From Deltaproteobacteria bacterium (GTDB taxonomy: Bacteria > Desulfobacterota > Desulfomonilia > UBA1062): 64,000 bases of DNA. Positions 113-49,446 of this stretch are shown in pieces. The notes beneath the pieces are model-generated. The model saw only the letters and a list, made by a program, of their open reading frames with translations, was not told the DNA's origin and did not search any database. Numbering within the stretch: the stretch's first letter is position 1; every line of letters begins with the position of its first letter. Made by a program: the position numbers and the translations under genes. Where the stretch lies: the NCBI GenBank assembly GCA_018434685.1, contig JAHDOV010000003.1:278302-342301 (forward strand), written 5' to 3'.

Positions 113-946
113 TCATGGTGATAAGTGGTCGAGCAAGACCGCGAGGGTAGCGGTATCGATACCATAATCCCCCGGGGAGACGGAGTTCCTGGCCGTGCCG
201 TGGTAATCGGTGCCGCCGGTGGCGAACAGACCGAGATCCCGTGCCAGGGATCTATAGAGCTTCTTCTGGGCCCTGGAGTGTTCCGGATAGAAGATCTCCA
301 CGCCCTTGAGTCCCCCTGACACGAGGCGTTCCATCAGGAGCCTGAGTTCATGGGACTGCAGTTCCAGGGTGAATGGGTGGGCAAGGACAGGCAACCCCCC
401 ATATTCATGAATGAGAGTCAGCGATTCCTCCCAGGTCATCTTTTCCTTGTCCACATAGGCCGGTCTGCCCTTGGCCAGGTATTGAGAAAAGGCCTCCTCA
501 TAATTGCGCACATAGCCGCCCCTGATAAGGGCCTTGGCGATATGGGGCCTCCCAATCTGGGCATCGCGGGCTATCTCTGCCACCTCATGGGCGGTGACCG
601 GCATCCCCAGGGCATTGAGTTTTTCTATGATCCGCGGACACCTCTTTCTCCGTGCATCCTGGATGCCCTCGAGGGCCTTTTCAAGCCCCTGAGGGTAGGA
701 GGGAAAATAGCCGAGGATGTGCATGGTGCCGGGTTCATAGATTGCACTGATCTCTACCCCGGGTATGATGCGGATGCCGGCCTCTTCACCGGTGCGGATG
801 GCTTCAGGGATGCCGGCAACGGTGTCGTGGTCGGTAATTGCAATGGCATCGAGTCCCCGCGCATGTGCCCAGGATACAATCTTGCCCGGGTTCAGGTCGC
901 CATCGGATGCGCTGGTGTGGATATGAAGATCGGCACAGATTTGCAA
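113..946 (-). CDS. PHP-domain phosphoesterase (RNase AM / nucleoside 3',5'-bisphosphate phosphatase-like)
   Basis: A 277-residue protein with the N-terminal PHP signature ADLHIHTSASDG, then AITDHDT near residue 40, PGVEIS near 62, and late metal-binding histidines in LAHP and GGTDYHG. These are the metal ligands of the PHP superfamily. The length and the order of motifs match the YciV/TrpH-type single-domain enzymes that hydrolyse 3',5'-nucleotide ends in the cytoplasm. The start is TTG at 946, chosen because the PHP signature begins immediately after it. It is the third gene of a minus-strand operon and lies 3 bp after the response regulator. Family assignment is firm; the exact substrate is inferred. 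Confidence 0.88.
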   Translation of the reverse strand: MQICADLHIHTSASDGDLNPGKIVSWAHARGLDAIAITDHDTVAGIPEAIRTGEEAGIRIIPGVEISAIYEPGTMHILGYFPSYPQGLEKALEGIQDARRKRCPRIIEKLNALGMPVTAHEVAEIARDAQIGRPHIAKALIRGGYVRNYEEAFSQYLAKGRPAYVDKEKMTWEESLTLIHEYGGLPVLAHPFTLELQSHELRLLMERLVSGGLKGVEIFYPEHSRAQKKLYRSLARDLGLFATGGTDYHGTARNSVSPGDYGIDTATLAVLLDHLSP

Positions 947-949
947 GAG

Positions 950-1321
950 TTACTCTTTCTCCGGCACGCGTGCCTCCAGTACCTGCGCTATCTTGTTTTT
1001 CAGTTCCGTAAGGTCTGACGATTTTACCACATACGCATCGGCGGCTATGGACTTGATATCCACCTTGTAGCTGCCGTATGCGCTGCAGAGGATTACCGGG
1101 AGGTTGTAGTAGGTGTTTCTGATCTCCTGAAGTACGTCGAGCCCATTGGTGGAAACCATCTTGATATCGAGCACGATCACGTCGGGTTTTTCTTCCTTGA
1201 TGCGGTCGAGAATGCCGGTTCCATCAGATGCCAAGGCCACCTCATAGCCCTCTTCTTCCAGTTCTTCCGAATACAGGAGCCTGATATGTTTCTCATCGTC
1301 AACGATAAGGACCTTTGACAT
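950..1321 (-). CDS. Single-domain response regulator (receiver only)
   Basis: A 123-residue CheY-like receiver with no output domain. The acidic pocket is VDDE (residues 7-10), the phospho-acceptor is Asp52 in VLDIKM, the switch Ser80 is in ILCSAYG, and the conserved Lys100 is in YVVKSS. I chose the ATG at 1321 because AAAGGAG sits just upstream of it; an earlier in-frame start at 1348 would overlap the preceding gene. It lies between a glycosyltransferase and a PHP enzyme, and no histidine kinase is adjacent. Its partner kinase is unknown; the orphan kinase at 29281 is one candidate in the window, without positional support. Confidence 0.9.
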   Translation of the reverse strand: MSKVLIVDDEKHIRLLYSEELEEEGYEVALASDGTGILDRIKEEKPDVIVLDIKMVSTNGLDVLQEIRNTYYNLPVILCSAYGSYKVDIKSIAADAYVVKSSDLTELKNKIAQVLEARVPEKE

Positions 1322-1335
1322 AGACCACTCCTTTC

Positions 1336-2553
1336 CTACTGGTTCCACCTGTCAATGAGATATGGTTTGGTTTGTTCGAATACCAGACACATATCCTCGA
1401 GGAATTCCTCTGCCTGCTGTATGGACATGCCCTCGGTCTTGTTCACGAAGGAGAGCGTCATTCCGTAGTACAGGGGGATGAGCACCTCGATGGCCTTATC
1501 TCTGTCCACGGTGATATGATAATATCCCAAGGCAAAGTCAAAGAGGATCCTTGCCCACACGGGAACAGGCATTTCAAAATGATCGATACTTAATGATGCG
1601 ACTTCTCTGATCTTCTGGAGATTCTCTGTCGAGAATATCGAACGGTACGTATCCCAGTACGTGTTGAACCCGTCTCTGAATCTCCGGTAAAGCTTTTCCT
1701 TGTCTACCTCCACCGGGGGAGGCATCTCCACCTCTCCGAGACCGAAGCCGAAAATTGCAGTGGGTTTACTCCATTTTGCAGATTGCCACTTGCCCTTGTA
1801 TTCGATCATGAGATTGAAGATGGTGCTGATCACCTGCCTGAACATGGGCCCGAGATCGGAGGCAGGGTCTTTGGGGTTGTGAACCTTGGGCCTGCCCATG
1901 AAGGCCTGACAGATGGGAACCCCCTGGTTCATGGCGATGGTCGTCATCCAGATATCGATCCCGAACTGGCTCACCTCCTCATTCCAGAGGGTGCTCTTCA
2001 GGTACTGGTGAGCCATTCTTCCGGAAAATCCGAAATCACCGCCGATGGGCTGTCGAACCCGTCTCCCGTAGAGGCAGCGGGTCAGGGGATAGGCGATGTT
2101 GTTGGTGATGGTGCCGTCGTATTTGTGTCTCACGTAGAGCGGGGCAACATAGCCGAAATCGTTGAAGAGGGGTTCTCCGAGGTTCTTGATCCACCGGGGG
2201 GTGATGCTCTTGAGATCGGCATCCACGACAACAATGGCCGTCGCATCCAGTTCCAGGACCTTTCTGAAGAGATTCTTGAAGTTGTTGCCCTTGCCGCGCA
2301 CCCCCTTGGGGGTCGAGAGGTATATCTTCGGGATTCCCAGGGTGTCTGTGTTCATGAAGGCATTGCCGGTTCCATCGGTACTGCTGTTGTCACAGTTGAT
2401 GATGACCGCGCGGGAGTCCCCGAAGTATTCCTTCAGGCCGAGAGCGGCCTGTGATGTCGGATATGCGATGAGGTCCGCTTCGTTGTACGAGGGGATGCCG
2501 ACAACGATATCCGCTTTCTCGACACCAGCGGGATTTTTTTCAAAGGCCTTCAT
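1336..2553 (-). CDS. GT-A fold glycosyltransferase (family 2/81-like, possibly glucosylglycerate synthase)
   Basis: A 405-residue soluble protein. The N-terminal nucleotide-sugar region reads IVVGIPSYNEAD (about residues 16-27), followed by CDNSSTDGT and the metal-binding VVDADL (about 108-113). No membrane segments are visible. The arrangement and length resemble bacterial enzymes that transfer a hexose from a nucleotide sugar to glycerate or 3-phosphoglycerate (compatible-solute synthesis), but the acceptor cannot be read from sequence. It is first in the operon with the receiver and the PHP enzyme, with a weak GGAG ribosome site. The GT-A family is sure; the specific product is tentative. 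Confidence 0.75.
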   Translation of the reverse strand: MKAFEKNPAGVEKADIVVGIPSYNEADLIAYPTSQAALGLKEYFGDSRAVIINCDNSSTDGTGNAFMNTDTLGIPKIYLSTPKGVRGKGNNFKNLFRKVLELDATAIVVVDADLKSITPRWIKNLGEPLFNDFGYVAPLYVRHKYDGTITNNIAYPLTRCLYGRRVRQPIGGDFGFSGRMAHQYLKSTLWNEEVSQFGIDIWMTTIAMNQGVPICQAFMGRPKVHNPKDPASDLGPMFRQVISTIFNLMIEYKGKWQSAKWSKPTAIFGFGLGEVEMPPPVEVDKEKLYRRFRDGFNTYWDTYRSIFSTENLQKIREVASLSIDHFEMPVPVWARILFDFALGYYHITVDRDKAIEVLIPLYYGMTLSFVNKTEGMSIQQAEEFLEDMCLVFEQTKPYLIDRWNQ

Positions 2554-2586
2554 AATATGGACTCCAGATTACAATGATAAGGCTCT

Positions 2587-2615
2587 ATTGTCTGACATTT
2601 GAGAGACAATGGCAA
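2587..2615 (-). promoter_or_regulatory. Candidate sigma-70 promoter of the glycosyltransferase operon
   Basis: On the minus strand TTGCCA (2615-2610) and GACAAT (2592-2587) are separated by 17 bp, giving a start near 2580 and a leader of about 27 nt before the ATG at 2553. Confidence 0.4.
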
Positions 2616-2636
2616 CAAGAAAATGCACGCTTGCAT

Positions 2637-2666
2637 TTGAGGGGGAGATGTGTGAATCTACATAAT
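2637..2666 (+). promoter_or_regulatory. Candidate sigma-70 promoter of the XPB gene (possible leaderless start)
   Basis: TTGAGG at 2637-2642 and CATAAT at 2661-2666 are separated by 18 bp. The predicted transcription start falls at about 2671-2673, on or next to the ATG at 2671, which has no Shine-Dalgarno sequence in the preceding 15 bases. Confidence 0.4.
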
Positions 2667-2670
2667 TCTG

Positions 2671-4353
2671 ATGAAGACGAGTGATAAACCTGTAATAGTA
2701 CAGAGCGATGGAAGCATCCTCCTTGAGGTCATGTCCCCGAGGTACGAGGAGGCGCGGGATGCGATTCTCCCCTTTGCAGAGCTCATAAAATCCCCCGAAT
2801 ACGTGCATACCTACCGGATCACCCCGTTGAGTATCTGGAATGCTGCAGCCATCGGCTTGACCTTTGACAGGGTGCAGACCACCCTTATGATCTTTTCGAG
2901 ATACGAGATCCCCGAAGGGGTTCTCTTCAGGATCCGGGATGCCTTTTCCCGCTGGGATGCAATTCGACTGCTGCGTCATGGCGATGGGGTGTTGAAGGTC
3001 GAGGTCAGATCCAGGGAACTCCTCGAAGAGATCACCGCGAAACCCTTTGTCAGGAATGCCCTCATCGACCAGATCGAGCCCCTGGGGTTTACCATCCCGG
3101 AAGACATACGGGGGAGATTCAAGCACCTGCTCATCAAGATCGGATATCCGGTCAATGACCTCGTCGGGTATGACCCGGGGGACAAATTCCCTGTGGAGCT
3201 CCGGGAAACCACCCTGGCGGGACAGAGATTCACCCTCAGGCAGTACCAGACGGAAGGCGCCGATAATTTCTGGGTCGGCGGCGGACCGAGGGGAGGGCAG
3301 GGGATTGTCGTTCTCCCCTGCGGGGCGGGAAAGACCGTCGTCGGGATGGAGGTCATGTCCAAGGCCGGGACGTATACCCTCATCCTGTGCACGAATGTGT
3401 CTGCCGTGCGTCAATGGATTTCAGAGCTGCTCGATAAGACCACGCTCACCAGGGATGATATCGGGGAATATACAGGAAACAAGAAGGAGATCAGGCCGGT
3501 TACCATTACGACATACCAGATGCTCACCTACCGGAAGACCCGCAATGCCCCCTTCGAACACATGAAGCTCATGCAGGCCCGGAACTGGGGGTTGCTCATC
3601 TATGACGAGGTTCATGTTGTCCCCGCACCGGTGTTCCGCGCCACGACGGAAATCCAGGCCAAGAGAAGACTCGGGCTCACCGCGACCCTGATCCGGGAAG
3701 ACGGCCTCGAGGAGGATACCTTTACGCTTGTCGGGCCGAAGTGCTACGATGTCCCGTGGAAGGAACTGGAGGTCAAGGGGTTCATCGCAGAGGCGTTGTG
3801 TTATGAGATCCGGCTCCCGCTGCCCCCGGAAAAAGAGATGGAGTATGCCCTCGCGTCGGACCGGTCACAGTTCAGGATTGCTTCGGAGAATGTCTACAAG
3901 GACCGGGTGATGAAGGATATCATCAGAAAACATGCGGATGAGCCCATCCTGGTGATCGGCCAGTATATAAGCCAGCTCAAGAGGATCGCGGCCACCCTGG
4001 GTGCCCCGTTGATCACCGGCGCCACCCCGAATACGAAAAGGGACAAGCTCTATGAGGCATTCCGCAGTGGCGACATACCGGTGCTCGTGGTATCGAAGGT
4101 CGCGAATTTTGCCATCGATCTGCCGGATGCCTCCGTGGCGATACAGGTTTCCGGGACATTCGGATCCCGCCAGGAGGAGGCGCAGCGGCTCGGAAGGATA
4201 TTGAGGCCGAAAGAGAGGATTTCAACCTTCTACACCCTGGTGAGCCAGCGCACGACAGAGGAGGAATTCGCCCACAAGCGACAGATCTTCCTTGCGGAAC
4301 AGGGATATAAATACCGGATTGAGGAATGGACACTCGATGAAATCAACCTATGA
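2671..4353 (+). CDS. Bacterial XPB-type DNA helicase (superfamily 2)
   Basis: A 560-residue ATP-dependent helicase. Walker A is CGAGKT (217-222), Walker B is DEVH (312-315), and motif III is TAT (337-339). It is followed at once by RED (342-344), the hallmark of XPB that couples strand opening to DNA damage handling. Motif VI begins QEEAQRLGR (from 501). The N-terminal 180 residues correspond to the damage-recognition-like region of XPB. It overlaps the next gene by 17 bp; the same gene pair is known from actinobacteria. The ATG at 2671 is the first usable start. Helicase identity is firm; a role in repair or transcription-linked repair is inferred from family knowledge. Confidence 0.92.
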   Translation: MKTSDKPVIVQSDGSILLEVMSPRYEEARDAILPFAELIKSPEYVHTYRITPLSIWNAAAIGLTFDRVQTTLMIFSRYEIPEGVLFRIRDAFSRWDAIRLLRHGDGVLKVEVRSRELLEEITAKPFVRNALIDQIEPLGFTIPEDIRGRFKHLLIKIGYPVNDLVGYDPGDKFPVELRETTLAGQRFTLRQYQTEGADNFWVGGGPRGGQGIVVLPCGAGKTVVGMEVMSKAGTYTLILCTNVSAVRQWISELLDKTTLTRDDIGEYTGNKKEIRPVTITTYQMLTYRKTRNAPFEHMKLMQARNWGLLIYDEVHVVPAPVFRATTEIQAKRRLGLTATLIREDGLEEDTFTLVGPKCYDVPWKELEVKGFIAEALCYEIRLPLPPEKEMEYALASDRSQFRIASENVYKDRVMKDIIRKHADEPILVIGQYISQLKRIAATLGAPLITGATPNTKRDKLYEAFRSGDIPVLVVSKVANFAIDLPDASVAIQVSGTFGSRQEEAQRLGRILRPKERISTFYTLVSQRTTEEEFAHKRQIFLAEQGYKYRIEEWTLDEINL

Positions 4354-6097
4354 TCTTATCTCGCATATCCCTGCATACATGATCGAGCTTATCTCCTCGC
4401 AGATCCTGGGGAATCCGGCCGATACGGGAAGGCTGGCCGAGGGATTGAGCGACGACAAGCGGCTCCGCAAGATCCTCGAGGCCCTGGGGGATAAACCCCG
4501 CTCCCTCCTCATGGACCTGTTCGAACTGGGAGGGCAGGTGCAGTGGGACGTGCTTGCACACCTCTATGGGGATGAACTGGACGAGGCCAGACAGACCCTG
4601 TCGCTCCTCGGGAAGGAAGGAATCGTTTTTCAGGGAGGTCTAACAGGACGAGACCCGCTCATCCTGCTGCCCTCTGTGAACCCCCTGCTGGATGCGGTCC
4701 GCCAGAAACAGTACAAACCGGTGGAAGATCTCGCCTGGAATGAGCCGAAACGCCTGGATGTCTGGGGACATATGGCCCTGATCAACACCGTGCGCAGCAC
4801 AAGGATCCGATGCAGATCCGGAATGGAGCCCTTCAAGCGGGGGTGGGAATTTCTCGAGGAAAAGCTCGGAGATCTCATCGATCTCAAGAGGATCTACTGG
4901 GAGCTCGTGGATCTTGGCTGTTTCTGGGACAAGAAGGGCGTGGTGACGGTCGCACACAACGCGTGCACTGATCTTGCCATCGACGGCGATGCGCGCTATC
5001 CCCTGTGGCGATTCGTGCAGACCTGTAAACCGTATCCCGGAATCGAGATCAAGGTCGTTGACCTGCTCGGGGAAAAGGCCCTGGCGAGAGATTTCCTGTC
5101 CCGGGCCCTCGTGCTCTTTCTCGTGAGCAGGACCCCCGAGGTGCCGGAGGCCCGGCAGATCATTGCAGGTCTGGTCGATCTCTGGATCGGCCTCGGTGTG
5201 CTCCAGGAAGACACCTTGGGCACCTGGATCAGGTTCACGCCGGGCGTTTCCTCTGGTTTGAAAGCAGGGAGACTGGAAGTGCCCCTTCAATCCTACGCGG
5301 AGGAGGTCATCATACAACCGAACATGGAAATCCTGGTGCCGAAGGATTTCGACCCTGTCGATATCCTGAACATCGGAGAGATTGCCGATGTGGTGCTGTG
5401 CGATGTCGTGAGCATCTATCGACTCACGCGCAAGTCCGTCTTCAGGGCACTGCATGAAGGGTGGAATGCCGGCAAGATCGAGAATTTCCTCGACCGGATC
5501 TCACGGCACGAGGTGCCGGACAATGTCATCAAGACCGTTGCCGGATGGTCTCGCTCCCATAGCGAGGCCCATATCATCACAGGGACGTTTCTCGTATTGC
5601 CCGACGCACCGCACAAGGCCCCCCAGGGGCTTGAGGAGATCCTGCCGGGCATCTTCAGGATTCCCGAGAAGTGTGGTGAAGAGGTCAGGGCATTTCTCGA
5701 CAAGAGGGATGTTATGGTGCGGGGTGTGGATCTGGTCTGGGACCGGGAGGAAGAAGGCGGGATCAACTGGGGGAAGATGATGCCCGTGGAGGCTCTGGCG
5801 CGGTATCAGACGAAGGCGGTCCGGAAAGAGGAGGGGGTGTATCCCTTCGGCATGGTGGCGCCGCTTCCCTATGGTTCAAAGGGGGAGGTGGTCTTTGAGG
5901 AGGCCCTGCACGTGGGCAAGTCGCTCATCATCTTCTATCCGAGGCAGGGCTATGGTGAAATTCAGGTGAAGAAGATCAGCCCGGTATATATCTACCGCAA
6001 AGGCGGTGCCGCTTTTGTCGAGGCCTTCTGCGAGGACACCGGAGAGGGCGAGATCTTCGAAATCAGCAAGGTTCGGGCACTGTTCAAAGAAGGCTGA
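4337..6097 (+). CDS. Helicase-associated protein paired with XPB (Helicase_C_3-like)
   Basis: A 586-residue protein starting at an ATG inside the end of the XPB gene (17-bp overlap), so translation is probably coupled. It has no Walker motifs. Segments such as EVIIQPNMEILVPKDFD (about residues 320-336), followed by IYRLTRKSV, resemble the XPB/Ssl2-like accessory domain found in the protein encoded beside actinobacterial XPB. An earlier in-frame codon at 4292 would add 15 residues with no homology-like character. The stop lies only 4 bp from that of the convergent M48 gene. Physical association with XPB is inference from gene order and family; no biochemical role can be read from sequence. Confidence 0.75.
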   Translation: MKSTYDLISHIPAYMIELISSQILGNPADTGRLAEGLSDDKRLRKILEALGDKPRSLLMDLFELGGQVQWDVLAHLYGDELDEARQTLSLLGKEGIVFQGGLTGRDPLILLPSVNPLLDAVRQKQYKPVEDLAWNEPKRLDVWGHMALINTVRSTRIRCRSGMEPFKRGWEFLEEKLGDLIDLKRIYWELVDLGCFWDKKGVVTVAHNACTDLAIDGDARYPLWRFVQTCKPYPGIEIKVVDLLGEKALARDFLSRALVLFLVSRTPEVPEARQIIAGLVDLWIGLGVLQEDTLGTWIRFTPGVSSGLKAGRLEVPLQSYAEEVIIQPNMEILVPKDFDPVDILNIGEIADVVLCDVVSIYRLTRKSVFRALHEGWNAGKIENFLDRISRHEVPDNVIKTVAGWSRSHSEAHIITGTFLVLPDAPHKAPQGLEEILPGIFRIPEKCGEEVRAFLDKRDVMVRGVDLVWDREEEGGINWGKMMPVEALARYQTKAVRKEEGVYPFGMVAPLPYGSKGEVVFEEALHVGKSLIIFYPRQGYGEIQVKKISPVYIYRKGGAAFVEAFCEDTGEGEIFEISKVRALFKEG

Positions 6098-6101
6098 GGC
6101 C

Positions 6102-7415
6102 TCAGGGCTTCTCCATCTTTCTGAAGGTCTTCTTCATTTCCCTGAGTTCTTCTGCCGTCTCCTTGTCCAGGTCCTGCTCCATGGCAAGGGCCGCATCTAT
6201 GTGGTGGATGCTCGCCTTGATCTTGCCTGTCCGGGAAAAATACCTGGCGAATGCAACGTGAGACAGCGCGGTCCGGGATGATTTCTCATAGAGGACGCCC
6301 AGCTTGTACTCCACCTTGATGTTTTGTTTCTGGTAGGGCAGCAGGGTCTTGATCGCCTCATCGACCTCACCCTTGTCTTCCATGATCTCGGCCAGGGCGA
6401 TGTTCGTCTGGGCAGATCTCCCGAAATTCTTCAGGTAGGGGTAGGCCTCGTCCTTTTTCCCGAGCATGTACAGGCACAGGCCCTTGTATGCGTATGCCTG
6501 GGGCAGGTCCATGTCGCCCAGCAGGGCAAGCGCCTCGTCATATTTCCTCTCCTGGGTCTTCATGATGCCCAGCGAGAGTGACCGATACGGTTCGGGGATT
6601 GTTTCAGTGCGGAGGGCAACCTCCGACTCGGACAGCATGAGACCCACCACGCTCGCATAGAGTGTCCAGTAGTTGTTGTCAGGACGAGGCTCACCCGGAT
6701 CGATAGAGGACGTGGCGATGCGGTTTTCCGTATACGGGTGGGTGAGGAGATACTCCGGGACGTTCGCCCCGCCCGTGAATGCCTGCATCCTGATGAGGAA
6801 GCGCTTCATGGCGGCAGGATCGAACCCGGAGGTCTTCATGAGGTTCCAGCCGAATTCGTCTGCCTCGTACTCGTTGCGCCTCGAATACGCGAGCTTGATA
6901 TTCTCACCACCCCCCAGGGAGGAATACACCAGCGCCGATCCCGCTTCGGGATTTTTGGTAGAGAGCAGGGTTCCGGCGATGATCCCCACGATGGTGGCAG
7001 TGGAGATCTTTTTCTGGGCCTCGAAGTTCTCCGAGATGTGACGCATCTGGCTGTGTCCCAGCTCGTGGCTGATAATGGCTGCAAGCTCATCCATATCGTT
7101 GACGAAGAAGAGCGTGCCCACGTTGATGAATATATAGCCATCGGGTATTGCGAAGGCATTCACCGAGCGGTCCTTCACCACGAATATCTTGAAGGGGTAG
7201 ACCGGCTGTTTTATGTGGTCTGCGAGCCGGTCCATGAGCATCTGAATCGGCCAGGTAATTTCCGGATCGTAGACAAGCAGATTGTTGGAGTCCAGATAGG
7301 TTATGAACTCCCTGGTAATATCCCGTTCTTCTTCATAGCTCAGTGCGTTGAGCTCTGAAGAGCTCAGCACGAGCAGCATCATGATGAGAAGATATCGTTT
7401 CATAGGGTTTGTCAT
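6102..7415 (-). CDS. Periplasmic M48-family metalloprotease with TPR tail (BepA/LoiP-like)
   Basis: A 437-residue protein with a hydrophobic signal segment (residues 5-24) and the zinc protease motif HELGH at 117-121. The third ligand lies in NEYEADEFG (181-189). The C-terminal 170 residues are helical TPR-like repeats, as in BepA. The family degrades or rescues misfolded outer-membrane proteins in the periplasm. The start is ATG 7415 with AGAGGTGA upstream; the second ATG at 7403 has no ribosome site. The gene is monocistronic with its own promoter at 7487-7515 under a palindrome. The family is sure; the OMP quality-control role is inferred and fits the porin and Tol genes in the window. Confidence 0.9.
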   Translation of the reverse strand: MTNPMKRYLLIMMLLVLSSSELNALSYEEERDITREFITYLDSNNLLVYDPEITWPIQMLMDRLADHIKQPVYPFKIFVVKDRSVNAFAIPDGYIFINVGTLFFVNDMDELAAIISHELGHSQMRHISENFEAQKKISTATIVGIIAGTLLSTKNPEAGSALVYSSLGGGENIKLAYSRRNEYEADEFGWNLMKTSGFDPAAMKRFLIRMQAFTGGANVPEYLLTHPYTENRIATSSIDPGEPRPDNNYWTLYASVVGLMLSESEVALRTETIPEPYRSLSLGIMKTQERKYDEALALLGDMDLPQAYAYKGLCLYMLGKKDEAYPYLKNFGRSAQTNIALAEIMEDKGEVDEAIKTLLPYQKQNIKVEYKLGVLYEKSSRTALSHVAFARYFSRTGKIKASIHHIDAALAMEQDLDKETAEELREMKKTFRKMEKP

Positions 7416-7480
7416 CGGCTGTTCACCTCTGAATGTATGGGGCTGTCTGGATTACTTTTCGTTCTTCCTGCCTTTTTGCA

Positions 7481-7503
7481 CCCTATACTATAGAGGTATA
7501 GGG
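7481..7503. promoter_or_regulatory. Perfect inverted repeat over the -10 of the M48 protease promoter
   Basis: CCCTATAC (7481-7488) and GTATAGGG (7496-7503) are exact inverted arms around a 7-bp centre. The right end of the predicted -10 and the start region of the M48 promoter fall inside it. It is a plausible operator for an unidentified repressor, or alternatively a leader hairpin. Confidence 0.5.
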
Positions 7504-7515
7504 CACGGGTGTAAA
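7487..7515 (-). promoter_or_regulatory. Sigma-70-type promoter of the M48 protease gene
   Basis: On the minus strand TTTACA (7515-7510) and TATAGT (7492-7487) are separated by exactly 17 bp. Predicted transcription starts near 7480, about 65 nt before the ATG at 7415. Confidence 0.6.
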
Positions 7516-7534
7516 TGAAAAAAGAGCAGCGGTT

Positions 7535-7566
7535 CCCCTGGCCGGGTCGGTCGGGCCGGCCAGGGG
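7535..7566. repeat. GC-rich inverted repeat between divergent genes
   Basis: CCCCTGGCCGG (7535-7545) and CCGGCCAGGGG (7556-7566) form an 11-bp perfect stem with a 10-base loop. No T-run follows directly on either strand, so it is not a standard terminator. It separates the M48 promoter from the sigma-54-type promoter of the PKD protein gene. Confidence 0.55.
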
Positions 7567-7662
7567 CTGAAGTGATTACGATATAGTAACATCTCATACG
7601 AATCTGTTGTGCAAATCTGTTCGTTCTCTCGATAACTACCCAGAAGCATTAATTTAAAAATG

Positions 7663-7679
7663 TTGGCTCGTTAATTGCC
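7663..7679 (+). promoter_or_regulatory. Sigma-54-type (-24/-12) promoter of the PKD-repeat protein gene
   Basis: TTGGCTCG with GG at 7665-7666 is followed at the correct 10-bp spacing by TTGC with GC at 7677-7678. It fits the consensus TTGGCACG-N4-TTGCT except for A to T in the -24 box and the last base. The start is expected near 7690, and the ATG is at 7719 with TGGAGG upstream. TTAC-N6-GTAA at 7576-7589 is a possible but weak activator site. Confidence 0.65.
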
Positions 7680-7718
7680 TTTGGTGATTCCAGCAATGGA
7701 ACTACTGGAGGTGTTTTC

Positions 7719-10115
7719 ATGAAACAACTACGAACTACTGTTGTGATGATATTTTCTCTGTTCATGCTCGCTCCTGTTCCCTCGATGGCCGCATCGGTCC
7801 TGGTGAGCTGGAACGCAAATCTGGAGCCTGATCTTGCAGGGTATCGGGTATACTATGGTTTCCAGTCCGGGCAGTACGGGACACCAAGAGATGTGGGCAA
7901 CACCACCAGTTATCAGGGGAGCGTGCCTGATGACGGGACAACCTATTACATAGCCGTGACCGCTTACGATACCTCGGGTAACGAATCCGGTTTTTCCAAA
8001 GAGGTCAGCATATCTGTTCCGGCGCCGGACACCACGCCTCCTGCCGGCAGCATCGTCATCAGTCAGGGAAATGCGACCACCCCGACGAGGGTAGTGACCC
8101 TCACCCTGAACGCAACGGATGCCGCCGGGGCCGTGACCGGGATGAGGTTGAGCAACGATGGTCAGAATTTCTCCGACGAGGTGGCCTATACCGCATCGCA
8201 GCAGTGGGTGCTGACAGAGGGCGATGGACTCAAGCGTGTTTACGTGCTCTTCAAGGATGCCGCCGGGAACTGGATGAGCGCACCCGTGAGCGATTCCATT
8301 GAATTGCAACTGGATTCCGATGGTGACGGCCTGCCGGATTCCTGGGAAAGCTCGTTTGCCTTCGATTCCAGCAACCCCGATGATGCAGGTGGGGATTCCG
8401 ACAACGACGGGATCTCAAACCTCGAAGAATACTATAACGATACTGATCCTAGAGATGCCTCGGACAACCTCCCGGTTGCCTCGGCCGGACCCGATCAGAG
8501 CCTCGCCCCCACGAGGGTATATCTCGAGGGATCGGCATCTTTCGATCCCAACGGAGATCCCCTTGAATATGCCTGGTCGAGCGTGACGGCCCCTGCTGCT
8601 ATCACCCTGGAGAATCGAACGGCTGTACGGGCAAGTTTCGTGGGTGTAAAGGCAGGACTGTACCGGTTCATGCTGAGCTGCTTTGACGGAAAGGCCTCAG
8701 CCACCGACACGGTGGACATCACTATCCTGAACGCCCCACCCAGCGTGGAAGCCGGCAGCGACATGACCGTCGATGCAGGGGAGACCATTGCGCTCCACGC
8801 GAGCGGTTCGGACCCCAATGGCGATACCCTGGGCTATGCGTGGTCACTCCTGGAAGGCCCTGAGGCGCAGCTCCCGGATCTGACCGATCAGGACATCAGT
8901 CTCACACTCATGAATCCGGGAATCTACCGCTTCTCGGTGGTGTGCTCGGACGGTGTCAATTCGAGCCCTGCAGACGAGATGCTCGTTACGGTCAATGACG
9001 ACAACCATGCACCCACGGCCATAGCAGGCACTGATGCAGACGTGCAGCTCGGGGCGAGGGTAACGCTCGACGGCAGCAGATCCTCGGATCCTGATGGCGA
9101 TGAGCTGGAATTCGCCTGGATCCAGGTCCTGGGACCTGCCGTGGCCATGCAGGATGCCACCACGTCAAACCCCTGGTTCGATGCTGACGCCGAAGGGACC
9201 TTCGAGTTCGAGCTCGTTGTCACAGACGGGTTCGTTTCCTCAGTTGCAGACAGGGTGATCGTGAGGGTCCTGCAGCTCAACAATGCCCCGGTTGCCGCTG
9301 CCGGTGACGATCAGCACGTATACGTGGGGGACCTGGTGACCTTCGATGCTGCAGGGTCGTTCGACCCGGACAATGATACGCTCTCGTTCTCCTGGAGCCA
9401 GACCTCAGGTGCGAGCGTGGAGCTCGCCGGCGCCGATTCCGACCGGCCGTCCTTTACCCCGACGACATCCGGCGTGCTGGAGTTCACCCTGGAGGTGTCC
9501 GACGGACAGGCATCGTCGCAGGACAGCATCTCGGTCACCGTCGATGATATCAACCAGGTTCCTGTGGCAGATGCCGGAGACGACTGTGTGGTCAATACCG
9601 GAGAAACGCTTACCCTTGACGGAAGCCGCAGCTCAGACCCCGATGGTGATGCCGTATCATTCATATGGTCGCAGCTCCAGGGACCCAGGGTGTCATTGAG
9701 TTCTTCCAACAGCGCTGCGCCATCGTTCGTCCCGGCAGAAGCAGGGGTGTATGTATTCGAACTGAAGGTCTACGATGGAACCGACACGAGCAGTCCGGAT
9801 ACGGTCACGGTTACCGTCCAGGCAGACGAGGCAGGCATCACGCCCCTTTCCCCGGAGATGGGTGCGGTGGTCAGCGAAAACCCCACGTTCTCGTGGGCAG
9901 GCAATGACTCGATAACCAAGTACAAGCTCTATGTCTCGCTGAAGAACAACAGGTACTACAACGTCTATACCGGGAGCAATACCACCTACACGATGCACCC
10001 GGTGCTGTGGTACTGGTTCATCCCATCGGGGACCTCGGTGACCTGGTATGCCGATGGGTACACCTCGGATGGGCAGGTGATCAAGAGCGAGGTGTTCGTT
10101 ATCAGAAAGCAGTGA
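7719..10115 (+). CDS. Secreted multidomain protein: Fn3, calcium-binding spacer and five PKD-like repeats
   Basis: 798 residues. A signal peptide (1-24, ending SMAA) is followed by an Fn3-like domain (about 25-108), an Ig-like domain (110-198), and an Asp-rich thrombospondin type 3-like segment (197-250, DSDGDGLPDSWE and DSDNDGISNLEEY). Five tandem PKD/REJ-like repeats of about 90 residues follow (252-705), each with a SxDPxGD loop and a W at the end of the next strand, then a C-terminal beta-sandwich ending in IRKQ. No sortase, S-layer or autotransporter tail is visible. The modules suggest an extracellular or surface adhesion or polymer-binding protein; no enzyme domain is present. It has its own sigma-54-type promoter and terminator. 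The architecture is clear, the function unknown. Confidence 0.85.
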   Translation: MKQLRTTVVMIFSLFMLAPVPSMAASVLVSWNANLEPDLAGYRVYYGFQSGQYGTPRDVGNTTSYQGSVPDDGTTYYIAVTAYDTSGNESGFSKEVSISVPAPDTTPPAGSIVISQGNATTPTRVVTLTLNATDAAGAVTGMRLSNDGQNFSDEVAYTASQQWVLTEGDGLKRVYVLFKDAAGNWMSAPVSDSIELQLDSDGDGLPDSWESSFAFDSSNPDDAGGDSDNDGISNLEEYYNDTDPRDASDNLPVASAGPDQSLAPTRVYLEGSASFDPNGDPLEYAWSSVTAPAAITLENRTAVRASFVGVKAGLYRFMLSCFDGKASATDTVDITILNAPPSVEAGSDMTVDAGETIALHASGSDPNGDTLGYAWSLLEGPEAQLPDLTDQDISLTLMNPGIYRFSVVCSDGVNSSPADEMLVTVNDDNHAPTAIAGTDADVQLGARVTLDGSRSSDPDGDELEFAWIQVLGPAVAMQDATTSNPWFDADAEGTFEFELVVTDGFVSSVADRVIVRVLQLNNAPVAAAGDDQHVYVGDLVTFDAAGSFDPDNDTLSFSWSQTSGASVELAGADSDRPSFTPTTSGVLEFTLEVSDGQASSQDSISVTVDDINQVPVADAGDDCVVNTGETLTLDGSRSSDPDGDAVSFIWSQLQGPRVSLSSSNSAAPSFVPAEAGVYVFELKVYDGTDTSSPDTVTVTVQADEAGITPLSPEMGAVVSENPTFSWAGNDSITKYKLYVSLKNNRYYNVYTGSNTTYTMHPVLWYWFIPSGTSVTWYADGYTSDGQVIKSEVFVIRKQ

Positions 10116-29166: not shown

Positions 29167-29280
29167 CACCAAGTTGCAAGAGCTGAAATTATATTAATCT
29201 AAATAATTCAATCAGTTATACAATATATCATGGGGGTGAAAAAAGTGCCACGGGCGGAATAAATTTCTCTGGAAGTTTTG

Positions 29281-30285
29281 GTGGTTGTTCGATACTATGG
29301 ATCTATGAGACAGGAACTCGTATACGAGATTCTCGATTCATTGCCGACAGGGGTCATGCTTGCAGACAGCACCGGCGGCGTTGCCTTTGCCAACAGTGCC
29401 GCCCTCGAATACATGGGAATAGACAGGGAGCGGCTCTCTGAGATCAACATAGACGGTCTCGTGCAGCACGACTCGAGGAAGAAAGAGACCATGCTGCGTA
29501 CCCGGGGAGATGAGCGGCTCACGGTTCGATTGAGCAAGAAGGACCTCGGCGGCGGGGGCTCGCTGATCATCCTGACCGACATAACCGAGATTCACCAGCT
29601 CCAGCAGGAGATTCTCAAGATGGACAAGCTCGCCACGGTGGGAGAGCTCACCTCGGGGATAGCCCATGAAATCCGCAATCCCCTTGCCGGGATAAAGATC
29701 ACCGCACAGGCCCTCCAGGAAGAGATCCCGGACAATGACCACCGGGCAGCCTACATCTCGAAGATCATCATCGAGATAGACAGGCTGAACAAGCTGCTGC
29801 TGAATTTCTTTGACTTTGCCAAGCCCAGGGAGTTGTATGTCCGTTCCTGTGATGTAAAGAAGGTGATCGAGGATACGGTCTCCATGGTCAGGGATACTGC
29901 CCGGGGTAACCATATCCGGATAATGGAATTCTACCCGACCAGTGCCATCAGGATCAAGGCCGATCCTGACATGATCCGGCAGGTGCTCATGAATATCCTT
30001 ATCAATGCCGTTCAGTCCATGACGTCCGGCGGCACCATGGAGGTGCACCTCCTGGAATTGGGTTCGTCTGTCCGGATCGAGGTGAGGGACACCGGAGAGG
30101 GTATCCCGGAAAACATCCGCAGCAGGATCTTCGATCCGTTTTTTACCACAAAGCCCAAGGGGATCGGCCTCGGGCTGTCCATTTCGTACCGGATCGTCAA
30201 GATGCACTCCGGATCGATCACGGTGGAGTCCTCGGCACAGGGGACGACGTTCATCGTGACGCTCCCAAGGGATATCGGGCGGTGA
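29281..30285 (+). CDS. PAS-containing sensor histidine kinase (NtrB-like)
   Basis: A 334-residue soluble kinase. An N-terminal PAS-like domain (about 10-105) is followed by HisKA with His129 in GIAHEIRNPLAGIK and an HATPase domain (NILINAVQS as N box, DTGEGIPE as G1, GIGLGLSIS as G2). No membrane segment is seen, so it senses a cytoplasmic signal, as NtrB-type kinases do. GTG 29281 has GGAAG five bases upstream; TTG 29278 and ATG 29305 are alternatives. No response regulator is adjacent. It is divergent from mraZ and 47 bp upstream of tolQ, with which it may be co-transcribed. Confidence 0.88.
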   Translation: MVVRYYGSMRQELVYEILDSLPTGVMLADSTGGVAFANSAALEYMGIDRERLSEINIDGLVQHDSRKKETMLRTRGDERLTVRLSKKDLGGGGSLIILTDITEIHQLQQEILKMDKLATVGELTSGIAHEIRNPLAGIKITAQALQEEIPDNDHRAAYISKIIIEIDRLNKLLLNFFDFAKPRELYVRSCDVKKVIEDTVSMVRDTARGNHIRIMEFYPTSAIRIKADPDMIRQVLMNILINAVQSMTSGGTMEVHLLELGSSVRIEVRDTGEGIPENIRSRIFDPFFTTKPKGIGLGLSISYRIVKMHSGSITVESSAQGTTFIVTLPRDIGR

Positions 30286-44935: not shown

Positions 44936-44958
44936 GTGCAGGCGTGATAGAACGATAA

Positions 44959-44992
44959 CAAAAAAGGGAGGCCTTAAAGGCCTCCCTTTTTT
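44959..44992. terminator. Bidirectional rho-independent terminator
   Basis: GGGAGGCC (44966-44973) and GGCCTCCC (44979-44986) form a perfect 8-bp stem with a 5-base loop, flanked by an A-run on the left and T6 on the right. It serves both rpoD and the convergent porin gene. Confidence 0.95.
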
Positions 44993-45012
44993 GTTGCCTG
45001 TTGCACAGGGTG

Positions 45013-46563
45013 TTAGAAGGTTACCGTGGCGATCCAGCGAGCAGCGTACTCGTCTTCGATCTCGAGGCCGGTATCGCCTGCGCCGAAGGCGTTTTCAAGC
45101 GCGCTCTCGTAGAAGTCGCCCGGCATGTAGTAGGCTGCCTGCAGTGCGACGCTGAAGTTGTCCTGCACCTTGTAGGAGGCCTTTGCGTTGAGCTCGATGC
45201 CGAGGTTCTTGTCCACCTTGTTCTTCGAGGTGAAACCAAGGGCAGTTGCGGCTGGTCCACCGACTTTGAATGCGTCCTGATTGAGGATATTCAGGGTTCC
45301 GTTTCTCGTATCCCAGTTCTCCAGGAAGTCGGTATTCTCTCTCTGTGCCCAGATCACGTTGCCGGTGAGCGTGAGCTTTTCCGACAGGTCGGCATCGGCG
45401 CCGAGGCGCACGAGCACGATGTTGGAGAAGCTGTAGTCGTCGAGGTCCGGGTCGCCGAGTGCGTCATACGTGTTGCCGGTGGGGGTCTCGAAGTACCGGG
45501 CATACCGGTCGGAGACATCGTTCATGAGCCAGGTGCCGAAGTCCTGATCATCCTCGAACCAGCCTGATACCATGGTCGGCTCGTCCGCGCCCTTTGCCCA
45601 GGCCACCGTGAGTTTCGGGGTGAGCAGGTCGAGGCCTGCGGATACCTCAGGGTAGGGAGACGGGCTGTTGAACTCGAGGTCATCAGCCAGGGAGTACGTT
45701 GATCCAAAGTATGAGCCGGTGTCCACATAGGTTCCCACGACATACTTGAGGAAGCCCGTGATCGTGATGTTGTCCATCTTGTAGGTAGCCTCGAAGTGCG
45801 GAGCCCACAGGGAGGTAGACGCATAGTCTTTTCCGCTCCAGATGTAGGTGAGCGTTGTAGAGACCGTGAGGTCCTGCGCCTCGTACTTGGTTAGCAGGGT
45901 CAGGTGGTCCTCGTCTGCCCGGTCGGACATGGAATCGAGGTTCTCCTGGTCGCCGCCGTTCTCGTCCTGCTTGTCCCAGATAAGCCCGAAGGTCCAGCCC
46001 TCGAGATCAGGCAGCCTGATGAAATACCCGACTCCCAGGAACTGGGGGGTCTTGCCGAAGATGAACTTGCCGTAGTCCGTGGTGACATCGGCCCAGAGGT
46101 TGTCGATGCGGAAGATCGTGTACCGGTCGTAGTGGTCGTATTCCCTCGGGCCGGTGAACTCGTCGGTCCTGCCGTACTCGTCGCCGCTGAGCTGGTTCTC
46201 GAAGGCCACGATGTTCGACTTGATGGAGATCCGGTCATTGATGATGAGCGTAGGGTCGAGGTAGAAGTAGTGCTTGAGATACGCATCGGAGTTGACAGTA
46301 TCTTCGATGGCGCCTTCGGGCACATAGGGGTCTTCAGTGAGACCTCCAAGATTTATTCCAAGCAACGGTGCCCTGACTATTGCCTGTGAGCCGATGGCCG
46401 CCACTGCCCCATCCGTCTTTGCATCGATGATGTCCGGCTGAACATAGTACCTGCCCTGGATCTCATAAGAGCCGTTGAGCTGAAGCTCCACGGCCCAGGC
46501 AGGCATGCCCAGTACCATAAAAGTACATGCCAGGAAAAACCATTTTGCCCAATTTTTTTTCAT
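45013..46563 (-). CDS. Outer-membrane beta-barrel protein (DUF1302-like porin)
   Basis: 516 residues. The signal peptide (MKKNWAKWFFLACTFMVLG, cleavage after PAWA near 24) is followed by alternating beta-strands with aromatic girdles, and the protein ends in Phe (ATVTF), as required for BAM insertion. The region with DNLWADVTTDYGKFIFGKTPQ resembles porins that carry an inner plug or constriction strand. Substrate unknown. ATG 46563 is chosen for the GGAGGG upstream and the signal peptide; the longer in-frame reading from 46659 has no signal character. It has its own sigma-54-type promoter 134 bp upstream, and a long, AT-rich 5' leader. Confidence 0.85.
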   Translation of the reverse strand: MKKNWAKWFFLACTFMVLGMPAWAVELQLNGSYEIQGRYYVQPDIIDAKTDGAVAAIGSQAIVRAPLLGINLGGLTEDPYVPEGAIEDTVNSDAYLKHYFYLDPTLIINDRISIKSNIVAFENQLSGDEYGRTDEFTGPREYDHYDRYTIFRIDNLWADVTTDYGKFIFGKTPQFLGVGYFIRLPDLEGWTFGLIWDKQDENGGDQENLDSMSDRADEDHLTLLTKYEAQDLTVSTTLTYIWSGKDYASTSLWAPHFEATYKMDNITITGFLKYVVGTYVDTGSYFGSTYSLADDLEFNSPSPYPEVSAGLDLLTPKLTVAWAKGADEPTMVSGWFEDDQDFGTWLMNDVSDRYARYFETPTGNTYDALGDPDLDDYSFSNIVLVRLGADADLSEKLTLTGNVIWAQRENTDFLENWDTRNGTLNILNQDAFKVGGPAATALGFTSKNKVDKNLGIELNAKASYKVQDNFSVALQAAYYMPGDFYESALENAFGAGDTGLEIEDEYAARWIATVTF

Positions 46564-46696
46564 CCAAATCCCTCCGTTAAGATAATATTTGTGTACGCTA
46601 AGCCAAACCCGGCAAAGACAGTGCACCCGTTCTCGGGCTTTCTGTCTGCGGGGAACCATTATTAATTAAATTACACTCTTATCCAAAAGGTACTAT

Positions 46697-46712
46697 ACAA
46701 CTTGTGTGCCAA
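46697..46712 (-). promoter_or_regulatory. Sigma-54-type promoter of the first porin gene
   Basis: The minus strand reads TTGGCACACAAGTTGT, with GG opposite 46710-46709 and the -12 TTGT at 46700-46697 (consensus TTGC, one mismatch). The start is expected near 46686, a leader of about 120 nt. The core (46698-46716) is identical to the one at 48335. Confidence 0.75.
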
Positions 46713-46762
46713 TATAAATCGGCAATGAATACGCAAAACTATAATAATTAATGCTGCAGCTT

Positions 46763-46778
46763 GTTGTAATTATACAAC
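46763..46778. promoter_or_regulatory. Palindromic upstream activator site, porin 1
   Basis: GTTGTA (46763-46768), ATTA, TACAAC (46773-46778). The centre lies about 60 bp upstream of the -24 GG, the usual place for a sigma-54 enhancer-binding protein. The same palindrome with a different centre stands upstream of the second porin promoter. Confidence 0.65.
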
Positions 46779-46868
46779 TATACCACCCAATCAGATGCAA
46801 AAATGATACAGGGGACAGTGCAGGGCTCTGGTAAGGAGAACCGGTGGGGGAGTTTCAGCCAGATAAAG

Positions 46869-46898
46869 AAAAGGCCGGGACAGCTGCCCCGGCCTTTT
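46869..46898 (-). terminator. Rho-independent terminator of the second porin gene
   Basis: GGCCGGG (46873-46879) and CCCGGCC (46888-46894) with an 8-base loop, flanked by AAAA and TTTT. On the minus strand it lies 27 bp beyond the stop of the porin gene at 46925. Confidence 0.9.
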
Positions 46899-46924
46899 CT
46901 TATGTTCACGATACGAAGGAACGA

Positions 46925-48163
46925 TTAGAAACCGAACGAGAGGCGGGTGCCGAGTTCGTACGGATCGGCGTCGTTTGCGCCCTTGTAGGTTGCATCGCCG
47001 GCAAAGAGGTATGCGCCGACCACATCGAGCTTGAGGTTTTCCATGAGCGCGTAGGTGGCGATGAGGTCGATCTCGGTGCCGAGGACGCTGTCGCCGGCTG
47101 CATTATCCTCTGCCAGTTCGGCATACCAGAGGTCTGCGGTGAGGCTCAGCTTGTCCATGGGCTTCACGGTCACGCCGAGGTTGGCGGCCATGATGTTGCT
47201 GATCTGGTCTTCGGGAGAGTTTGCAGAAGCGCCCTCGTCAAAGATGCCGAGGCCCATGATCTCTGACCAGTAGTAGCTCTGGCCAGCGGGTACCCAGAAG
47301 GCGTCGTTGTCGACATCAACTGCATCGTCGTCGCCGGTGGCATAGAAGATCTGGCCGTGGATATCGAGGGCATTGACACCCACGCTGCCGCCCAGGGCTA
47401 CGAGGTAGGCAGAGGTGTCAGAGCTGCCGCCTGCTACGAGGTCAGCAGAACCGAACTGATAGATGCCGGTGAACCAGAGAGAAATGGCATCGAGCTCCAT
47501 GTCCACATCGGCGCCGAGGTAGTAGAGGTCGAATTCGTTGTAGTCTTCGAGCCATTCCGAGGCATCCTTGGAGGTGATCCACATGAAGATCGGCTGGACC
47601 GTTGCGCCGCCGAGCTTGAGCGACGGGTTGATGCCGTAGTAGTCGACGTCGAAGTCGTTCTTGCTTGTTACTTCGCCGGTTACATTATAGCCTTCGTAGG
47701 CCTTGAGCCAGAAAACAGGGATCGCCATGTCGCCGGCATTGTAGGTGAAGGTTGCGCCCGAGGCGTCGTCGTCCATTATGAAGCCGCGGTTCAGGACCTT
47801 GCCCTGGATACCGATCTTGGAGTTGACATTGCCGAGGGTGAAGTCCACGTAGGAATTCTTCACAACGATGTTTGCTGCATCAGCGCCGATGTCGCCGCCA
47901 TTGGTGTCACCCCATACATTGTTGAACTCGAACTTGTTGACGAACTTGAAGGCATCGCTGAACTTTGCGGTGTAGTAGAGCCTGGTCCTGGTGTCTACGC
48001 GCTGCAGGTCCTGCGATTCGCTCTGGTCCTCGCCGGCGAAATCCTGCTGCAGGATGGCCCGGGTGCGCATGTAGCCGCCGAAGATATTCTCCAACGCCAC
48101 TGCAGGGGTTGCAAACACACAGAAGAGCCCTGCTGCCAAAAGTAATACCATTAATTTCCTCAT
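46925..48163 (-). CDS. Outer-membrane porin
   Basis: 412 residues. The signal peptide (MRKLMVLLLAAGLFCVFATPAVA, cut near 23) is followed by a beta-barrel with repeated amphipathic strands (e.g. DTRTRLYYTAKFSDAFKFV) and a terminal SFGF ending in Phe. It is shorter than and not similar in sequence to the porin at 45013, so it is not a recent duplication. Acidic loops (DDDA, DVDNDAF) may bind cations. The substrate cannot be read. A good AGGGAGG precedes the ATG; the gene is monocistronic, with a sigma-54-type promoter upstream and its own terminator. Confidence 0.87.
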   Translation of the reverse strand: MRKLMVLLLAAGLFCVFATPAVALENIFGGYMRTRAILQQDFAGEDQSESQDLQRVDTRTRLYYTAKFSDAFKFVNKFEFNNVWGDTNGGDIGADAANIVVKNSYVDFTLGNVNSKIGIQGKVLNRGFIMDDDASGATFTYNAGDMAIPVFWLKAYEGYNVTGEVTSKNDFDVDYYGINPSLKLGGATVQPIFMWITSKDASEWLEDYNEFDLYYLGADVDMELDAISLWFTGIYQFGSADLVAGGSSDTSAYLVALGGSVGVNALDIHGQIFYATGDDDAVDVDNDAFWVPAGQSYYWSEIMGLGIFDEGASANSPEDQISNIMAANLGVTVKPMDKLSLTADLWYAELAEDNAAGDSVLGTEIDLIATYALMENLKLDVVGAYLFAGDATYKGANDADPYELGTRLSFGF

Positions 48164-48332
48164 CCTAAATTCCTCCCTATGTTTTTTTCTTGTCTTCTTA
48201 ACAGATAGATATCATGTGTCCAGATCGTGCCCGGAGATGCTCTGTCGATAGAGCTAAAATTCTCTCTTTCACTATCATATCCCGCAGTTCTGCCTCATAA
48301 TTTATAGTATCCATTTGAATGTATGCAAGATA

Positions 48333-48349
48333 AGCAACTTGTGTGCCAA
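48333..48349 (-). promoter_or_regulatory. Sigma-54 promoter of the second porin gene
   Basis: The minus strand reads TTGGCACACAAGTTGCT, a full match to the -24/-12 consensus (GG opposite 48347-48346, GC opposite 48335-48334, correct spacing). The expected start is near 48323, leaving a leader of about 160 nt. Confidence 0.85.
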
Positions 48350-48400: not shown

Positions 48401-48416
48401 GTTGTAGAAATACAAC
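48401..48416. promoter_or_regulatory. Palindromic upstream activator site, porin 2
   Basis: GTTGTA (48401-48406), GAAA, TACAAC (48411-48416). The centre is about 61 bp upstream of the -24 GG, within 1 bp of the spacing at the first porin promoter. Confidence 0.65.
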
Positions 48417-48549
48417 GCACGCCGCTCACGACTGAGGTAAAAATAAAACAGGGAATTAGGACCTTGACCTTTGGAAGGAGTTTTGAGAAAGGGTAGGTAC
48501 ACGCTACAGGCACCGGCTCAAAAAATGTGATCCGACAAGGGGATAACGC

Positions 48550-49446
48550 ATGTACAGGAATATCGCACTACTCGTTACGGCTTTCGGTTTCGTCATGATA
48601 AGCGGCTGTGCCGAGCTCGATCAGCTCCAGGTGAACAGGGGGGTGCAGGACAATGTATTCTCTTCGACGTCCCCGAGGCTCGAGCTCAGGATAGACCCTT
48701 CGCTCAAGCTCATGGCAGAGGTGAAAGAGGACAGGGCGCCTGCGAAAAACAGCATCCGGAACGATCCCATGGAGAACGCCTCCACGCACCTCTCCTATAT
48801 ATTCGGGGATGAAAGTAACGGCGTCGTGGTGAGACGGGGGGTCATCATCAGGACCCGCACCGTTACGGGCGACCCCAACCAGGCGGGCGAACCGGACCTG
48901 CCGGAGAAGAGAAACGAGCTCGTCTCGGGGATGACGAAGATCCTCGGGGATGAGTACCAACACTATACCGTGGCAAGCGACAACCTCTTTACCGATGAGG
49001 AGCGGCGGGCATTGACCGGACGGGACATCTCCGGGTGCCTCCTGGTCAAGGGGCTCGAGAGGGACTTCGGGCTCGGCAGCAAATCACTTGTGCAGATCCT
49101 CTATTTCGAGCGCATCCCGGCATCAGAAGTCACAGCGCAGTGCGGCTCCTGGCAGGACGCTTCGGCATTGACCGATGAGCAGGACAGATTCCTGGGTGCC
49201 TTTCTGGACAGGAGCTTCCAGGGGGTCCGCTTTGTGAAGGGCAGCGAGGTGACCGATGCGACCGCAAAGTATGTGGACCGCGAGCAGAAGGGGGATGCTG
49301 AGGCTGAAAAAGCGCTGCCTCCTGCCGGCCCTGACGGCGGCGATATCGAGAAGAGGCTTCAGGTCCTGAAGAACCTGCGGGACAAAGACCTGATAACCCA
49401 GGACGAGTACGAGCGCAAGAAGCTGGAGATCCTCGAGGGATTGTAG
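48550..49446 (+). CDS. Lipoprotein with C-terminal SHOCT-like domain
   Basis: 298 residues. The signal peptide ends in the lipobox ISGC (Cys about 20). The middle (about 30-235) is a mixed alpha/beta domain I do not recognise. The last 34 residues (DIEKRLQVLKNLRDKDLIT, then QDEYERKKLEILEGL) match the SHOCT short oligomerisation domain. No +2 Asp inner-membrane retention signal is visible after the Cys (Ala-Glu follow), so outer-membrane placement is likely. AAGGGG precedes the ATG. It is a single gene between the porins and phosphomannomutase; function unknown. Confidence 0.8.
   Translation: MYRNIALLVTAFGFVMISGCAELDQLQVNRGVQDNVFSSTSPRLELRIDPSLKLMAEVKEDRAPAKNSIRNDPMENASTHLSYIFGDESNGVVVRRGVIIRTRTVTGDPNQAGEPDLPEKRNELVSGMTKILGDEYQHYTVASDNLFTDEERRALTGRDISGCLLVKGLERDFGLGSKSLVQILYFERIPASEVTAQCGSWQDASALTDEQDRFLGAFLDRSFQGVRFVKGSEVTDATAKYVDREQKGDAEAEKALPPAGPDGGDIEKRLQVLKNLRDKDLITQDEYERKKLEILEGL

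Follow-up and report, generated by a model that had tools for sequence, protein, structure and literature searches.

Two neighboring porin genes of a deltaproteobacterium are probably switched on together from sigma-54 promoters with a common palindromic enhancer

We analyzed a 64,000-nucleotide stretch of a deltaproteobacterial genome (the window) and found that two neighboring porin genes, here called porin A and porin B, have a common sigma-54 promoter core and a common palindrome upstream of it. In all likelihood, the two genes form two separate sigma-54 units under one common NtrC-family activator that would act from a tandem palindromic enhancer. The sequence itself shows the promoters, the palindromes with their spacing, and the terminators; it also shows that these elements are conserved and that the genome has rpoN and activator genes. 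From these we infer binding, activation and the sameness of the activator for both porins.

Porin genes and their transcription units

The two genes and their terminators are as follows.

45013..46563, minus strand: porin A, open reading frame of 516 aa with signal peptide, outer-membrane beta-barrel (PF13372, E 9e-4, sub-cut-off)
46925..48163, minus strand: porin B, open reading frame of 412 aa with signal peptide, Desulfovibrio-type porin superfamily
44958..44995, minus strand: terminator between porin A and the convergent rpoD, hairpin, -30.5 kcal/mol for a 61-base stretch
46866..46901, minus strand: intrinsic terminator 3′ of porin B, hairpin, -29.1 kcal/mol, dividing the two units

It seems that each promoter serves its own gene, because a strong hairpin terminator lies behind each porin. 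Alginate_exp (PF13372) matched both proteins (18.5 and 19.3 bits), under its gathering cut-off of 25.2. Porin B also matched DESULF_POR1 (NF033939) with 92.8 bits over residues 1-287, under the curated cut-off of 250; by this score it is related to the family and not a member of it. The preliminary description had called the two porins dissimilar. This held for BLAST, in which the best match covered 33 aa (E 0.014), but not for a profile-profile comparison, which aligned 370 columns of shallow profiles with 97% probability. The profile alignment suggested that porins A and B are distant homologues with a retained common control element. Structure models of the two porins (mean pLDDT 37 and 52) were too poor for a fold search, and no relatives of solved structure were found by sequence. 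Weak ceruloplasmin matches to a 46-residue stretch were judged to be chance.

A divergent lipoprotein-like gene with a SHOCT end (window 48550-49446, plus strand) lies between porin B and a phosphomannomutase gene. It was missing from the corresponding place in two genomes of the family, G005 and G008.

Sigma-54 promoters

Comparison of the two upstream regions on the minus strand revealed a 21-base core, TTTATATTGGCACACAAGTTG, common to both promoters. An identical core had been noticed before, with its length given as 19 bases; the identity stands and the length is corrected to 21.

46697..46712, minus strand: sigma-54 promoter of porin A, TTGGCACACAAGTTGT, predicted start at about 46685
48334..48349, minus strand: sigma-54 promoter of porin B, TTGGCACACAAGTTGC, perfect consensus, predicted start at about 48322

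Tested against TTGGCAC-N5-TTGC (GG at -24, GC at -12), the porin B promoter was an exact match and the porin A promoter had a single deviation, C to T at -12 (TTGT), just as the preliminary description had read them. The starts that it had placed near 46686 and 48323 also agree with those predicted here from the -12 elements. When the window was scanned for TTGGCAC-N5-TTGC with at most two mismatches, 14 sites were found and 14.0 were expected, which is not significant alone. A consensus match by itself is therefore at chance level in the window; the pair rises above chance because of the common 21-mer and the common upstream palindrome. The genome-wide motif search suggested earlier was run with the exact pattern TGGCACN5TTGC and gave 20 sites versus four for the reversed control, an enrichment. 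The genome-wide statistics given here came from pattern searches of the 4.29-Mb genome. Sigma-70-like boxes in the AT-rich DNA upstream of the porins were weak and at chance level (4 found, 2.4 expected).

Some sigma-54 promoters, not all, require an IHF bending site. No IHF consensus was found before porin A or porin B of this genome. Between enhancer and promoter, a perfect one occurred only in G005 and one with a single mismatch in G008.

Upstream palindromes

The palindrome GTTGTA-N4-TACAAC lies 50/51 bp upstream of the -24 box at both porins. There are exactly two perfect copies of GTTGTAN4TACAAC in the 4.29-Mb genome, both at these porins, while about 0.13 would be expected from the base composition of the window. 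The predicted enhancer sites are listed below.

46763..46778, minus strand: predicted proximal enhancer palindrome of porin A, GTTGTATAATTACAAC, exact palindrome, centre at about -85
46794..46809, minus strand: putative weak distal enhancer site of porin A, GTATCATTTTTGCATC, 7/12 consensus bases, 31 bp above the proximal site
48401..48416, minus strand: predicted proximal enhancer palindrome of porin B, GTTGTATTTCTACAAC, exact palindrome, centre at about -86
48434..48449, minus strand: putative weak distal enhancer site of porin B, GTTTTATTTTTACCTC, 9/12 consensus bases, 33 bp above the proximal site

The distance from palindrome to box was 66/67 bp for these two porins and 66-68 bp in every case, like that of an activator-type site at a fixed place. 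We rescored eight upstream regions for a second site, each anchored on its proximal site. A weaker second copy was present 31-33 bp farther upstream in six of the eight (porin A and porin B of this genome, G005, G008, G002 and G011). The mean second-site score was reached by 0/2000 mononucleotide shuffles at that offset and by 3/2000 anywhere upstream, figures that are indicative only, since the sequences are related to each other and not independent. A pair of sites separated by three helical turns is the classical layout of NtrC-type activators.

Outside the promoter core and the palindrome, the two porin upstream regions are mostly unlike each other. Divergence around an exact core and an exact palindrome is the pattern expected from selection on two functional elements. 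Around 30 retrieved sigma-54-like sites of the genome (L011-L040), no enhancer other than those of the two porins was found within 300 bp at up to two mismatches. No description of a GTTGTA-N4-TACAAC operator was found in the open-access full-text literature.

Conservation in other genomes

Orthologues of porin A were found in G008, G002, G009 and G003, and those of porin B in G011, G012 and G018. Among 24 family genomes, the strict pattern of enhancer plus promoter occurred in this genome (twice), in G005 of the same genus and in G008 of another genus; the reversed controls gave zero. In G008, it precedes the porin A orthologue (54% identity), beside phosphomannomutase. The G005 site adjoins the syntenic phosphomannomutase gene and is 43 bp short of the contig end. 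Porin A of G002 has a variant promoter, TGGCATGTAACTTGT (TGGCAT), with a one-mismatch palindrome at unchanged spacing and a second palindrome-like site 32 bp upstream of the first. Porin B of G011 and G012 has, in the corresponding position, a sigma-54-like site and an altered palindrome with a GATGCA half-site (L098, L097; some 230-150 bp ahead of the start of porin B). As counterparts of the enhancer these sites are suggestive only, and perhaps the operator has drifted there. The upstream regions of porin A in G003 and G009 and of porin B in G018 had no such enhancer.

A looser pattern gave 20 matches in 84,980 species genomes, where roughly a dozen would be expected by chance according to a rough estimate from the count of specified bases. 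The complete palindrome was present in three of the 20 (G005, G008 and a Nitrospirae MAG, G024), all with an identical 81-bp layout. The loose scan also returned a nifH-like gene of Denitrovibrio (L080, 2373-2460) with TGT-N10-ACA upstream and a sigma-54 promoter.

In G024 (contig C93), the enhancer and sigma-54 promoter precede a 464-aa porin-like gene, whose product matches DESULF_POR1 weakly, far under the curated cut-off. The genes downstream, all on one strand, encode a double PhnD-type substrate-binding protein, a Cache/HAMP sensor kinase and a sigma-54 response regulator (L124).

L172 (G024:C93), 325-6816: apparent operon of enhancer, promoter, porin, PhnD-type protein, kinase and regulator

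L124 has a sigma-54 activation domain, and its DNA-binding end is lost at the contig end. This operon is independent evidence, from outside the window, that links the palindrome with porin control and with a sigma-54 activator. It may be a porin switch that senses a solute and controls the genes of the operon itself; its PhnD-type protein and Cache kinase hint at a periplasmic solute as the signal. A second copy of the arrangement was not found in 396 genomes of the phylum of G024.

Candidate activators

An rpoN gene, on which the preliminary description had made sigma-54 control depend, is present in a single copy (one Sigma54_DBD match, 215 bits). The genome has about 31 strong matches to sigma-54 activators, none inside the window. 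Together with the genome-unique palindrome at equal spacing, this is consistent with the earlier proposal of a two-gene regulon whose activator is encoded elsewhere. For six activators (L042, L045, L046, L052, L055 and L064), a reciprocal best match was found in G005 as well as in G008; others may also be considered, because G005 is only 79% complete. The best conserved candidates, all response regulators, were L052 (C47:98272), L042 (C46:579152), L045 (C46:603517), L046 (C47:363918) and L064 (C46:575079). In seven further family genomes, none of the candidates tracked the site exactly. L055 was favored at first by its co-occurrence (it was absent from three genomes thought to be without the site), and it was dropped because a variant site was found in G002, which has no L055.

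It is possible, if doubtful, that L052 activates the two porins as one element of outer-membrane homeostasis. Its gene adjoins lpxC and a sensor kinase.

L180 (G000:C47:88500-108000), 6276-9352 and beyond: lpxC, sensor kinase and NtrX-like activator, side by side

L052 scored highest among all models with NtrX (NF051870; 492 bits), and we call it only NtrX-like because the curated cut-off of 600 was not reached. It had reciprocal best matches in G005, in G008 and, at full length, in G024, where it was the best of the six, and it is present in G002, G011, G012 and G018. However, it was found too in genomes without the enhancer pattern (e.g. G004 and G003), there is no operator near its gene, and the G024 operon encodes a separate regulator of its own.

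We consider it unlikely that the activator is L042, the closest relative in this genome of the G024 operon regulator. Identity to L124 was 53% for L042, L119 and L120, of which each enhancer-bearing genome has one, and did not exceed about 48% for any other regulator with a complete receiver domain; L042 was also the best match of L124 in the receiver and ATPase parts, each taken separately. However, a nearest relationship between the two was not upheld by the tree, in which another G024 protein, L132, was closer to L042 and L124 had no supported partner. In addition, the L042 gene lies beside flagellar genes and is present in nine of the nine family genomes tested, and the truncated L124 offers no DNA-binding end for comparison. 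A study of Desulfovibrio vulgaris cautions that activators with similar DNA-binding domains do not always have similar motifs (PMC4641369). Kinase matches to the G024 kinase reached only about 29-35%, which was not decisive.

Two other signaling loci were seen. An orphan histidine kinase (window 29278-30285, plus strand) has no adjoining response regulator gene. In L177 (G000:C34; 10007-17807) and L185 (G008:C258; 922-8796), genes for a receiver protein, a Cache kinase and a sigma-54 activator come after formate-dehydrogenase-like genes. The two genera thus have this cluster in common, and no promoter with the exact sigma-54 consensus was found in the stretch.

Proposed mechanism and alternative explanations

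A closed complex, DNA looping and activator-driven opening are established sigma-54 biology. Porin A and porin B would be separate transcription units, each with its own promoter for RNA polymerase-sigma-54, and the polymerase would wait at each in a closed complex until activation. A common NtrC-family activator would bind the tandem palindromes, the strong one at about -85 and the weak one at about -117, three DNA turns apart. The activated oligomer would then contact the polymerase by looping of the DNA and open the complex by ATP hydrolysis, and the signal would raise both porins together. The common promoter and the common palindrome at equal distance, recurring elsewhere, suggest that one activator probably controls both porins and switches them on together. 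The promoters, rpoN, the activator genes and the conserved palindrome with its spacing all agree with the sigma-54 control that had been proposed, and very probably represent a dedicated, enhancer-activated porin regulon.

Alternatively, the palindrome might be bound by a regulator that is not of the sigma-54 kind, such as a CRP/FNR-type protein, which would either work through a sigma-70 promoter or modulate the sigma-54 promoter. The 5-4-5 format does resemble TTGAT-N4-ATCAA, and a few sigma-70-like boxes are close by. However, these boxes are present only at chance number, the distance to the -24/-12 box is a constant 66-68 bp with a second site three turns up, and the apparent operon of G024 includes a sigma-54 activator gene. 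We therefore regard this explanation as very unlikely. It is hardly credible that the common upstream DNA is a leftover of tandem porin duplication without regulatory meaning: the porins are adjacent and distantly homologous, but the proteins have diverged nearly past BLAST and the surrounding upstream DNA has diverged too, while core and palindrome are exact, and the elements and their spacing recur in other genera and another phylum.

Significance

Two sigma-54 units under one activator would be a new case of an already known type of control, a reading that is well supported by the sequence comparisons, with an operator for which the open-access full-text literature gave no description. In the literature searched, sigma-54 control of porins is sparsely documented, and no reports of it were found for these uncultured anaerobes. 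A two-gene regulon with a genome-unique operator offers a testable handle: one motif, two targets and a short list of activators. The preliminary description had suggested a nitrogen, carbon or formate signal, and nothing that we found points to any of these. If the signal is a solute sensed in the periplasm, as the Nitrospirae operon suggests, nutrient sensing would be tied to outer-membrane permeability. More tentatively, and with somewhat less than an even chance of being right, we propose that a previously undescribed, porin-dedicated sigma-54 activator with the operator GTTGTA-N4-TACAAC recurs in different phyla, in a deltaproteobacterial family and in Nitrospirae, and couples a periplasmic solute sensor to outer-membrane permeability, the cassette being kept while the porins diverge.

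Comparison with known systems

The glnAp2 promoter is a sigma-54 promoter with an NtrC-type tandem enhancer. The porin regions resemble it in their -24/-12 promoters, in palindromes about 85-117 bp upstream and in sites about three helical turns apart. They differ from it in that the operator is GTTGTA-N4-TACAAC, the targets are porins and the activator is only predicted.

In Pseudomonas putida, the sigma-54 activator CbrB binds upstream of porin genes including oprD (PMC6296734). Unlike the activation proposed here, oprD expression was higher without CbrB and the other tested porin was unchanged; CbrB also has a large regulon and an operator different from GTTGTA-N4-TACAAC (PMC6296734). The homotrimeric Desulfovibrio porin DVU0799 (PMC5686591) belongs with the DESULF_POR1 model, which porin B and the G024 porin matched over much of their own length. 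Size and signal peptide are similar, but the scores of both were far under the curated cut-off. The word "promoter" is absent from the DVU0799 paper (PMC5686591).

The main text of the study of Desulfovibrio vulgaris sigma-54 regulons (PMC4641369) contains neither "porin" nor "outer membrane" nor TTGTA/TACAA. It describes numerous dedicated activators, which each have an operator of their own and act on few targets, and the two porins would likewise make up a deltaproteobacterial sigma-54 regulon with few targets.
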